In this document: piece after piece, positions 20,451 to 28,647 of the stretch
Layout of the letters: every line of letters starts with the position of its first letter
Numbering within the stretch: the stretch's first letter is position 1
From: a virus
Reading direction: 5' to 3' (one strand)
DNA: 30,460 nucleotides
IMG/VR virus record: IMGVR_UViG_3300035670_000945
Coordinates: 1-30,460 of that record
Program-made: the position numbers and the translations under genes
Notes under the pieces: generated by a model
Databases searched by the model: none
The model's input: the letters and a program-made list of their open reading frames with translations, nothing else
Told to the model about the DNA's origin: nothing

Positions 20451-20885
20451 ATGGAAAACAAGATTGACAAAGTAAAAGAAGTAATAGAAAAAGACGGATT
20501 AATAACTAAATCCAGATACAGAACTTTTTTAGATAGACGTAGCTACTTATACGCGATGCTAAATAAAAACGGAATGTCTTTAGTAGAAATAGGAAGACTG
20601 TTCAATAAGAATCACGCTACTATAATCAACGGAATAAAGAAGCATCACGCTTACACACGATTCAAAGACGAATTGTATTTACACAACGTAAAAGAATATC
20701 GTGAAATATTCTACGAACCAAAGAAGATTAACGTTGATTTGATAGAAAAAGACGAAAAGAAATACAACGGCTCTCAGTTAATCACCGATATTTTAGAGTG
20801 TAAAAACACTACTGAACTACAGGATATAAAGCGCAAATTGTTAAACGAAGAATATTTATTTACTGAAGCAACTTATTATAAGTAA
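20451..20885 (+). CDS. DnaA domain IV-like DNA-binding protein
   Basis: 144 residues. Residues about 29-66 (RRSYLYAMLNKNGMSLVEIG, then RLFNKNHATIINGIKKHH) match the helix-turn-helix of the DnaA C-terminal domain. In DnaA, LGRxFGGRDHTTVxxAxxK contacts the DnaA box; here NKNHATIINGIKK replaces it. The AAA+ ATPase part is absent. The rest is acidic and helical. A protein like this could bind the phage origin, recruit or titrate host initiation factors, or regulate transcription. It lies before the candidate RNA and the replication genes. The DnaA-like reading is by motif and fairly convincing; the role is inferred. Confidence 0.6.
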   Translation: MENKIDKVKEVIEKDGLITKSRYRTFLDRRSYLYAMLNKNGMSLVEIGRLFNKNHATIINGIKKHHAYTRFKDELYLHNVKEYREIFYEPKKINVDLIEKDEKKYNGSQLITDILECKNTTELQDIKRKLLNEEYLFTEATYYK

Positions 20886-20892
20886 ATATCGT

Positions 20893-20900
20893 TATATTTG
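20893..20900 (+). promoter_or_regulatory. TATATTTG -7 box before candidate RNA
   Basis: An exact TATATTTG as in the promoters at 18782 and 25563, starting 8 bases after the preceding stop codon. The -33 region at the same spacing reads ACTT, so it is a weak or incomplete match. Transcription would begin near 20905, exactly at the first helix of the candidate RNA. Confidence 0.5.
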
Positions 20901-20904
20901 CAGA

Positions 20905-20996
20905 CGGACTCCTTCAACATTATAAGTCCTTAAGGTATTATTACCCTTGTTTTTGAAGTAGAGGTTGAAGGCTACGGATAAAGCGAGGGTTTTTTA
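20905..20996 (+). ncRNA. Candidate structured RNA with interleaved helices
   Basis: About 90 bases between a TATATTTG box and a T tract. Three pairings are visible. GGACT (20906-20910) pairs with AGTCC (20925-20929). CCTTCAAC (20911-20918, in the loop of the first) pairs with GTTGAAGG (20964-20971). ACCCTTG (20943-20949) pairs with CGAGGGT (20984-20990, one T-G wobble), followed by TTTTT. Neighbouring helices interleave, so the fold would be a double pseudoknot, or the pairs are alternatives in a switch. There is no good ORF. It may be a free small RNA or an attenuating leader for the gene at 21016. I recognise no known RNA family. Confidence 0.5.
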
Positions 20997-21015: not shown

Positions 21016-21225
21016 ATGGCAACAATTAATTTTACAAATGGACAAGAATTATCAGTCCCATTAACAATTGAAGAAATACAAAAATTACCAGTAGGACATA
21101 AAGATTTTATAGAAATTAATAAAGAAAAAATAGTTTGTGTTGGTAATAATCAAAACACAAAAAAAATCACAAAAAAGTTATTAATTAATATAAATTCAAT
21201 TGCTTATATTGAAGAAAACCTGTAA
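21016..21225 (+). CDS. Small AT-rich protein, 69 residues, unknown
   Basis: Very AT-rich, and I find no ACG triplet in it, unlike most of the phage. This suggests recent gain. The N-terminus INFTNGQELSVPLTIEEIQK and the later DFIEINKEKIVCVG look like a small beta-barrel or SH3-like protein. It lies directly after the candidate RNA and two bases before the replication organiser gene, so it is cotranscribed with the replication genes. Confidence 0.55.
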   Translation: MATINFTNGQELSVPLTIEEIQKLPVGHKDFIEINKEKIVCVGNNQNTKKITKKLLININSIAYIEENL

Positions 21226-21227
21226 AA

Positions 21228-21884
21228 ATGAGTGGTTGGATTAAAATACATCGCAAGTTTTTAGACTGGGAGTGGTTTAATAAAAGCGAAGCAGTTCATT
21301 TATTTATGTATTTAGTTTTAAAGGCTAATCACAAAGAAGGACAATGGCAAGGAATTGATATTAATAAAGGTCAATTTGTTACGTCTTTTGGTAAAATTTC
21401 AGCTGATACTGGAATCAGTTTACAAACGATTAGAACACTTTTAAAAAAGCTTGAAAAATCAAATGAAATTAACATACAAACAACAAACAAATTTAGTATT
21501 ATAACTATCTGTAAATATGAGTGTTATCAAAACGAAACTGAAGTTAATGACACCAAAGTAACAAGCAAACAACAAACAACTAACAAACAACTAACAACAA
21601 ACAAGAATAATAAGAATAATAAAGAAATATTATTAGACACTTGGGTTGAATATCGTAAGCAAATTAAAAAGCCTATAAAACAATCTACTATAAAAATTAT
21701 TTACGATAAGATGTTGTTACATACTGAAGAAGAATGTAGGTTTGTAATTAATAATTCTATAGAGAATGGTTGGATAGGTTTATTTTGGGATAAGATAGTT
21801 AAACAAGAAAAACCTAAATTTGAAGATTTAGACCCATTAGTAAGAAAAGCAATAGAGCAAGGTTACATAAAATATCCACAATGA
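21228..21884 (+). CDS. Replication organiser with winged-helix N-terminus (DnaD-like)
   Basis: 218 residues. The N-terminal part, GWIKIHRKFLDWEWFNKSEA and then GKISADTGISLQTIRTLLKK, is the winged-helix pattern seen in phage replisome organisers and DnaD-like primosome proteins. A low-complexity Thr/Lys/Asn/Gln linker (about 105-130) leads to a small helical C-terminal domain (TEEECRFVINNSIENGWIGL) with the Trp typical of DnaD/DnaB-type DNA-binding ends. It overlaps the helicase gene by four bases, which fits a loader or organiser for that helicase. Codon use is AT-rich. Confidence 0.7.
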   Translation: MSGWIKIHRKFLDWEWFNKSEAVHLFMYLVLKANHKEGQWQGIDINKGQFVTSFGKISADTGISLQTIRTLLKKLEKSNEINIQTTNKFSIITICKYECYQNETEVNDTKVTSKQQTTNKQLTTNKNNKNNKEILLDTWVEYRKQIKKPIKQSTIKIIYDKMLLHTEEECRFVINNSIENGWIGLFWDKIVKQEKPKFEDLDPLVRKAIEQGYIKYPQ

Positions 21885-27954: not shown

Positions 27955-28130
27955 TAAACGAGATTCACGCACTCGACGAAACCAAAAGATACGCAAAGAC
28001 GAATCTAATTAAGCTACGCACCATAAAAGAAAGAATAACCGGAATAAAAGACAAGGAATGTTTTTGTCAATCGGTAAGGCGTAGAGTATGGTATACTGAT
28101 TTTAGGACTTGGTATGAAAGCCGTTCTTGA
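27927..28130 (+). CDS. Small protein, 67 residues, unknown
   Basis: The ATG at 27927 overlaps the membrane-protein gene by 28 bases; a longer TTG start is less likely. It has a helical first half (DTALINEIHALDETKRYAK) and a basic, aromatic second half (CFCQSVRRRVWYTDFRTWYE). It overlaps the sigma-like gene by 17 bases. It may modulate the sigma-like factor, but only position suggests this. Confidence 0.55.
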   Translation: MFTDSDTALINEIHALDETKRYAKTNLIKLRTIKERITGIKDKECFCQSVRRRVWYTDFRTWYESRS

Positions 28131-28647
28131 CAAGTACATACAATGTAATTACGACGAGGTAAGAAGATACACAAACTACTTCCTCGTAAGAATGAACAGC
28201 CATATAGACGCGGACACAGTTATCAACAACTCTTATTTACACGTTCTAAGCATAAACGACGATACTGCTTGTGAGGAAAAAGTAAAATCTTACCTTCTAA
28301 ACACAATCAAATGCCAGGTTTTATGGTCTACAAGTCAGTCAAACAATGACGATAGAGTAACGGCAATCGAAGAAGGAAAACAACAGGACTGCGAAAACAC
28401 GGATTTAGAATGGAAAATTCAGTTAGAAGAGCAGTACATATTAAAAAAATCTATCATAGAGATATATCGAAATAGTATAAACGATAGAATTAAGCAAATT
28501 ATCTTCGAAGCATATTACGACAAAGGCTTAACTACTCAGAAGGAACTAAGTCAGTACTTCAATATCTCAATGACTGCTGCTCATTTCTTAATCAAAGAGA
28601 TAAAACAAGGCATAAAAGAAATTCAATATAGTTATGACACACGCTAA
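28114..28647 (+). CDS. RNA polymerase sigma-70-like (ECF-type) factor
   Basis: 177 residues. The N-terminal half has a region 2-like pattern (HIDADTVINNSYLHVLS, then KVKSYLLNTIKCQVLW). A polar linker is followed by a region 4-like helix-turn-helix (DRIKQIIFEAYYDKGLTTQK, ELSQYFNISMTAAHFLIKEI). Size and order fit ECF sigma factors, though the sequence is diverged. It would redirect host RNA polymerase, most plausibly to the TAATATAG elements of the late genes, because it lies just upstream of the late unit. A CAATATAG copy sits near its own 3' end. The sigma call is by pattern; a plain DNA-binding regulator is possible. Confidence 0.6.
   Translation: MKAVLDKYIQCNYDEVRRYTNYFLVRMNSHIDADTVINNSYLHVLSINDDTACEEKVKSYLLNTIKCQVLWSTSQSNNDDRVTAIEEGKQQDCENTDLEWKIQLEEQYILKKSIIEIYRNSINDRIKQIIFEAYYDKGLTTQKELSQYFNISMTAAHFLIKEIKQGIKEIQYSYDTR
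28624..28631 (+). promoter_or_regulatory. CAATATAG, one-base variant of the late element
   Basis: CAATATAG two bases before the ATG at 28634, inside the end of the sigma-like gene. Position relative to the start codon is as in the five exact copies. It is also part of coding sequence, so chance is a real possibility. Confidence 0.3.

Follow-up and report, generated by a model that had tools for sequence, protein, structure and literature searches.

Does the 130-base gap in the replication block of an uncultivated virus hold a functional RNA, and if so, what might that RNA control? The DNA analysed here (the window) is 30,460 nt long and corresponds to positions 1-30,460 of the IMG/VR virus record IMGVR_UViG_3300035670_000945. 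Its ORFs include a terminase, a portal, an Erf-like annealing protein, a NinG-like protein and a replication block, along with tail proteins as judged by eye. The nearest annotated relatives of the terminase belong to Parabacteroides and Flavobacterium phages, at ~33% identity; based on these relatives and on the Bacteroidota-type promoter boxes described below, we infer that the host is probably a Bacteroidota bacterium. The gap separates a DnaA-C-terminal-like ORF (20451-20885) from a 69-aa ORF (21016-21225). The match of the upstream ORF to Bac_DnaA_C reached 29 bits, under the curated cut-off of 31.5, and in 70 of 102 homologous loci an ORF upstream of the RNA belongs to the same BLAST cluster. 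Searches of Pfam and PHROG with the 69-aa ORF gave no match, and this ORF is followed by a gene for a DnaD-like helicase loader and then by a primase/helicase-like ATPase gene (Table 1). Further along the window, a 177-aa protein (28114-28647) with a weak helix-turn-helix match (phrog_668, E 4e-4) looks by eye like a small sigma-like DNA-binding protein, and is a possible phage transcription regulator.

Table 1 Features of the leader RNA and of the flanking genes in the window
Feature	Position	Strand	Basis
Upstream ORF, DnaA C-terminal (helix-turn-helix)-like, 144 aa	20451-20885	+	Pfam Bac_DnaA_C, E 1.1e-6
-7 promoter box TATATTTG, Bacteroidota type (TAnnTTTG)	20893-20900	+	Sequence and homologues
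P1 5' strand GGACT	20906-20910	+	Covariation with 20925-20929; both sides change in 5/5 pairs
Kissing strand 1 CCTTCAAC, within P1 loop	20911-20918	+	Covariation with 20964-20971
Unpaired loop segment AUUAUA, conserved (consensus A-N-N-AUA)	20919-20924	+	Columns 14 and 17-19 at least 97% conserved
P1 3' strand AGTCC	20925-20929	+	Covariation
Linker, conserved (consensus AAG...UUAUU)	20930-20942	+	Alignment columns 27-37
P2 (putative terminator stem) 5' strand ACCCTTGTTTT	20943-20953	+	Both sides change in 11/11 pairs among homologues
Internal loop 5' side UGAA	20954-20957	+	93-100% conserved
P2a 5' strand GTAG	20958-20961	+	4/4 pairs covary, 100% paired
Kissing strand 2 GTTGAAGG, within P2a loop	20964-20971	+	Covariation, kissing-run counts
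P2a 3' strand CTAC	20972-20975	+	Covariation
Internal loop 3' side GGAU	20976-20979	+	82-95% conserved
P2 3' strand AAAGCGAGGGT	20980-20990	+	Covariation
T tract immediately 3' of P2, intrinsic-terminator-like	20990-20995	+	T counts in homologues
First downstream ORF, 69 aa, no function assigned	21016-21225	+	Pfam/PHROG without match
DnaD-like helicase loader (replication initiation)	21228-21884	+	phrog_2514, E 1.8e-31

A kissing-loop RNA upstream of the replication genes

The first-pass annotation of this DNA had proposed a new structured RNA with interleaved helices in the gap. All the strings that it named are present, i.e., the box TATATTTG, GGACT/AGTCC, CCTTCAAC/GTTGAAGG, ACCCTTG/CGAGGGT (20943-20949/20984-20990, one wobble) and a T tract from 20990. 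The fold spans window positions 20906-20990, and comprises a hairpin (P1), a terminator stem (P2), a small hairpin (P2a) and a kissing helix between P1 and P2a. The ACCCTTG/CGAGGGT helix proved longer than described, 11 bp rather than 7, and P2a, which is joined to it via the internal loop UGAA/GGAU, had been missed. P2a is a 4-bp hairpin whose 10-nt loop exposes the GTTGAAGG strand, while the first eight bases of the 14-nt P1 loop are the complementary CCTTCAAC. Because P2a presents GTTGAAGG in its loop, the 8-bp helix is a loop-loop (kissing) interaction. Instead of the double pseudoknot or mutually exclusive folds envisaged earlier, there is thus a single kissing interaction, and P1, P2, P2a and the kissing helix are mutually compatible and can form together.

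Energy alone is unremarkable (minimum free energy z-score -0.88 with the kissing helix left out), and the case for the fold therefore rests on comparison with homologues. Seed loci came from a scan that used the window's own kissing pair as its pattern and from protein-anchored scans with the DnaD-like and DnaA-like proteins. A descriptor search of the seed virus contigs, which required the kissing helix, returned 55 distinct copies with the same architecture and different letters. A covariance model built from P1, P2 and P2a only, without the kissing helix, then gave 71 matches in 82 loci (one per locus), at least 78 matches in 77 of the 82 loci of a second set (nearly all retrieved by scanning for the unpaired bases that are conserved), and 42 matches in 86 further loci, 80 of which had been fetched via homology to a different DnaD-like protein. 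After allowing for contigs recurring between sets, the RNA is present in more than 150 IMG/VR virus contigs, normally as one copy per contig, and the true number is higher.

These homologues are uncultivated virus contigs throughout. A covariance-model search of Bacteroidota genomes (117 of one family and 395 across the phylum) found no match but had no positive control and shows little, and annotated phages, queried by BLASTN with the region and with a consensus-like homologue, yielded chance matches only. An Rfam search had been suggested at the outset as a check, and no family matches: neither the window nor any of 15 diverse homologous loci matched an Rfam 15 family (isrK, C4 and riboswitches included) at the gathering threshold, and the sole match in a permissive scan of 551 bases was a chance-level snoRNA family beside the RNA (E 9.9).

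All four helices covary. Across 58 distinct aligned copies, 26 of the 28 base pairs, kissing pairs included, change on both sides, so that the compensatory changes whose absence would have refuted the first-pass proposal are clearly found. Helix cells are paired in 97.8% of cases (97.9% for P2), and the covariation score of 0.846 compares with 0.240 after shuffling and at most 0.130 with slid partners. Within the kissing helix, six of eight pairs change on both sides and the remaining two (A-U and C-G) are invariant. When column pairs were ranked by APC-corrected score in 111 sequences, the 19 highest all fell within P1, the kissing helix, P2 and P2a. Conservation of unpaired bases is found in loop 1 (A-N-N-AUA), the linker (AAG...UUAUU) and the internal loop (UGAA and GGAU).

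Selection bias is a fair worry for the kissing helix, since the descriptor had required it. A kissing run of at least 8 bp was detected in 104 of 114 distinct RNAs, and in 27 of 30 distinct RNAs from a sample unselected for kissing, i.e., loci fetched by protein homology and searched with the model lacking this helix. Mismatched chimeras, in which loop 1 of one phage was combined with loop 2 of another, reached such a run in ~1% of cases. The collection holds at least 29 different kissing words, each complementary to its own partner, with G-U pairs nearly absent from this helix (3 cells). Over all helices, 226 cells are G-U versus 4 A-C, from which we conclude that it is the + strand RNA that is under selection; the same counts rule out function as the complementary strand. 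Taken together, because the fold is retained in more than 150 related virus fragments whose letters differ, this comparison confirms that the folded RNA is real, far beyond chance. In structural terms it can be assigned, from these sequences, to the kissing-loop pseudoknot RNAs, as the criterion of compensatory loop-loop pairing is met.

Promoter box, putative terminator and distance to the first gene

The first-pass annotation had placed the predicted transcription start at the first helix, which fits a -7 box ending 5 nt before P1. Of 111 distinct homologues, 108 have a TAnnTTT box no more than 22 nt upstream of the RNA; TAnnTTTG is the sigma-ABfr -7 consensus, as confirmed by RNA-seq in Flavobacterium johnsoniae (PMC7366714). 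At the other end, at least 6 T were counted among the 10 nt at the P2 end in 113 of 114 distinct homologues. P2 and its T tract meet the sequence criterion for an intrinsic terminator (a G+C-bearing stem, then a U tract), while termination in vivo is inferred.

The first ORF starts 14-20 nt past the model end (10th-90th percentile). These first ORFs fall into more than 20 unrelated families or clusters, including HNH and GIY-YIG nucleases, ParB-like and DUF6378 proteins and many unknowns, and the spacing is the same whichever family follows. No further -7 box (TAnnTTT[GC]) lies between the RNA and the first ORF in 110 of 111 cases. On paper, this arrangement meets the criterion for a structured 5' leader, one that precedes a gene with no intervening promoter. 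Given the fixed spacing and the lack of an intervening box, operon transcripts should therefore have to pass the terminator. The stretch that separates the leader RNA from the DnaD-like gene (21016-21225 in the window) is filled by many unrelated small ORFs in different phages; lying behind a constant promoter-RNA block, it appears to resemble an insertion or exchange hot spot.

Other leaders at the same site

In some phages, the space from this type of promoter box to the replication gene is occupied by other leaders. Those of class II (L331-L339, L251, L254 and L287) differ in their internal loop, GGTTAGTA/GAACGCTG, and have kissing words of 6 or 7 nt (AGGCAG/CTGCCT, GGTACAA/TTGTACC). For L331, L332, L335 and L254, a copy of AGGCAG occurs immediately upstream of the start codon (AAGGCAGTAAAATG), so that loop 2 could pair with either copy; in the predicted fold of L331, this copy sits in the loop of a third hairpin with a stem formed from the T tract and an A run. 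The contig L201 carries, besides its normal copy, a second, divergent kissing-loop leader (19-101, - strand; GGGCAG/CTGCCC, 25.8 bits), which another start codon follows, and the kissing pair of L269 is GTGCCG/CGGCAC.

A different RNA follows the same promoter in L111 (from ~2505), and the same leader is found in L340, L341 and L105. Its stems are CCGCCAC/GTGGTGG and AAGGAAG/CTTCCTT, CACGACC kisses GGTCGTG, and CACGACC appears again just upstream of the ATG; this RNA looks unrelated and follows the same logic. Among class I leaders, L178 and L204 repeat seven kissing-word bases, CTTCGAC, between the terminator and the ATG, flanked by short T and A runs. In L178 and L204, and likewise in L111/L341, this repeat would offer loop 2 a second place to pair. 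A further type, with an AATGAGG/CCTCATT stem then a T tract and no obvious kissing pair, was seen near the DnaD-like gene in L295, L299 and L305, where it follows a TATATTTG-like box and precedes the replication gene. Finally, in L112 (IMGVR_UViG_3300021598_000043), just past the DnaA-like ORF, the leader ends inside loop 1 (GCACTCCTTCGACATTA...) and unrelated coding sequence follows, reflecting either recombination or an assembly join.

One tentative possibility, on which we would not yet rely, is that there is a widespread undescribed superfamily of kissing-loop leaders at phage replication operons. Its several classes would share one logic, in which the P1 loop kisses the apical loop of the terminator stem, and would be told apart by their internal loops and by the lengths of their loops. 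Members of some classes could use the apical loop to bind the first gene's start region instead, and one word could thereby couple termination, small-RNA release and translation.

A proposed cis-acting terminator leader and its alternatives

The first-pass annotation had allowed for either a small RNA or an attenuator of the replication genes. Because no -7 box lies between the terminator and the first ORF and the start-codon spacing is tight, the placement favours an attenuator or leader, although the choice remains open. With moderate confidence, we interpret 20901-20996 as the 5' leader of the replication operon, a structured RNA of ~95 nt that acts in cis as a terminator leader. We consider this the best reading because, if P2 terminates, the downstream operon can be reached by read-through only. 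Transcription would start just before P1, which would fold first, with its 14-nt loop. As P2a emerges, its loop would kiss the P1 loop over 8 bp, and P1, the kissing helix and P2a could stack; P2 would then form next to the U tract, completing an intrinsic terminator. After ~95 nt, RNA polymerase would either stop and release a small RNA or continue into the first ORF and on to the genes for the DnaD-like loader and helicase. Termination at P2 would most likely be set in cis by the folding of the kissing-loop domain or by its bound partner; no ligand or protein has been identified. The RNA probably controls when the phage replication genes are switched on, with regulation being inferred in the absence of transcript data. 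The regulated nature of any read-through, and a signal acting on the kissing/internal-loop core, are likewise inferences. A constitutive leaky terminator that merely yields abundant small RNA would look no different at the sequence level.

Two predictions of a classical two-state attenuator or riboswitch were tested and neither was met. No column pair consistent with an antiterminator helix competing with P2 covaries in 111 sequences, and pairing between the linker and the P2 5' arm scored 8.85, at the level of permuted combinations (8.77). With no competing helix supported, a classical two-state switch is therefore not visible, and regulation, if any, probably operates via folding or binding of the kissing/internal-loop core rather than via an alternative stem. 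Leader-peptide attenuation was rejected as well, there being no ATG in 20901-20996.

The strongest competitor to the cis-acting terminator leader is a stand-alone small RNA, i.e., a terminated RNA of ~95 nt acting in trans on host or phage targets or on a protein, with read-through merely incidental. Its own -7 box, compact fold and T tract are all marks of a small RNA, and the fold is conserved beyond the needs of an ordinary terminator. However, the next ORF lacks its own promoter box and follows at a near-constant distance, which would be odd for an independent RNA gene. The own kissing words occur 5 times on the + strand of phage sequence versus ~2.9 expected, not clearly above foreign words, and 29 interchangeable words argue against a fixed antisense target. 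We consider this explanation unlikely, though not negligible.

Some of the other leaders bear on a dual small RNA/mRNA translation switch, as in IsrK of Salmonella prophage Gifsy-1, in which loop 2 would have two alternative partners, the P1 loop and the start region of the first gene, the latter on the read-through mRNA or in trans. The loop-1 word AGGCAG found again directly before the ATG in class II leaders L331, L332, L335 and L254, its display as a third hairpin loop in the minimum free energy fold of L331, and the repeats of CACGACC in the unrelated leader L111/L341 and of CTTCGAC before the start in class I leaders L178 and L204 would all be consistent with such a switch. Yet the words concerned number only three, and a start-region copy was detected in only 2 of the 107 class I leaders tested and is absent from the window, which leaves this switch improbable as an account of the RNA.

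An immunity RNA like the CI RNA of phage P4, in which a short RNA would pair in trans with the nascent leader of an incoming relative and stop its replication operon, appears very improbable. The position matches that of P4 CI/seqA, in the leader of replication genes before a terminator (PMC4825925), and the kissing words do vary between phages, but variability in the kissing strands does not exceed that in P1 or P2a, and the own words are not clearly enriched elsewhere in the contigs. The window holds no second copy of CCTTCAAC or GTTGAAGG, so that the criterion for a C4-type antisense target is not met, nor was an integrase or repressor recognised in its ORF list (by eye, not exhaustively).

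We give hardly any credence to a replication-origin RNA (primer or R-loop RNA) without a role in gene control: the RNA does sit between DnaA-like and helicase-loader genes, but G+C skew does not switch near 20.9 kb, and the T tract and fixed start-codon distance indicate an mRNA leader. A type III toxin-antitoxin RNA (ToxI-like, with tandem pseudoknot repeats before a toxin nuclease) was rejected, since there is a single copy per locus, except for the weak divergent second one in L201, and diverse ORFs and replication genes lie downstream.

Comparison with known regulatory RNAs

Kissing complexes, in which two hairpin loops form Watson-Crick pairs, are known from TAR/TAR* and ColE1 RNAI/RNAII. 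The loop-loop pairing described here is of this kind, including complete pairing of the 6-nt loops of class II leaders, whereas it is intramolecular and tied to a terminator stem. Attenuators and riboswitches built on intrinsic terminators share the structured 5' leader, the terminator stem and the spacing to the first gene; unlike them, the present RNA has no detectable antiterminator helix and no evident leader peptide. HK022 put is also a structured RNA that opens an early phage operon. It overcomes terminators further downstream, whereas the RNA described here itself ends in a terminator.

In its organisation the RNA resembles P4 CI/seqA and Gifsy-1 IsrK, for which a phage transcript is either terminated or extended by read-through into the operon (PMC4825925). 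As in satellite phage P4, the RNA would be a leader of replication genes with expression hinging on premature termination (PMC4825925). However, the processed antisense RNA of P4 works via seqA and seqC, while the RNA described here has no complementary pair other than the kissing one in cis, and no target in trans was detected. IsrK has its own promoter, an intrinsic terminator and partial read-through into a downstream operon (PMC4825925), features also inferred for the new RNA, and pairing with the start region is possible in some of the variant leaders found here. By contrast, the new RNA matches no Rfam family, its two loops kiss in cis beside the terminator, the window has no complementary copy at the first start codon, and the downstream genes are replication genes, rather than anrP/antQ as for IsrK. 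We conclude that the RNA represents a new family of a known general kind (structured phage leaders with a terminator), outside the P4 CI/seqA and IsrK families, an earlier description outside Rfam not being excluded.

Implications

Overall, the locus provides a well-supported new RNA fold at the DNA-replication control point of an uncultivated phage group. The promoter-RNA-ATG block precedes many unrelated first genes, and so might serve as a modular expression cassette for engineering Bacteroidota. Should the terminator prove to be regulated, the RNA would constitute a compact attenuator gated by kissing loops, and early gene control in these phages would become directly testable.
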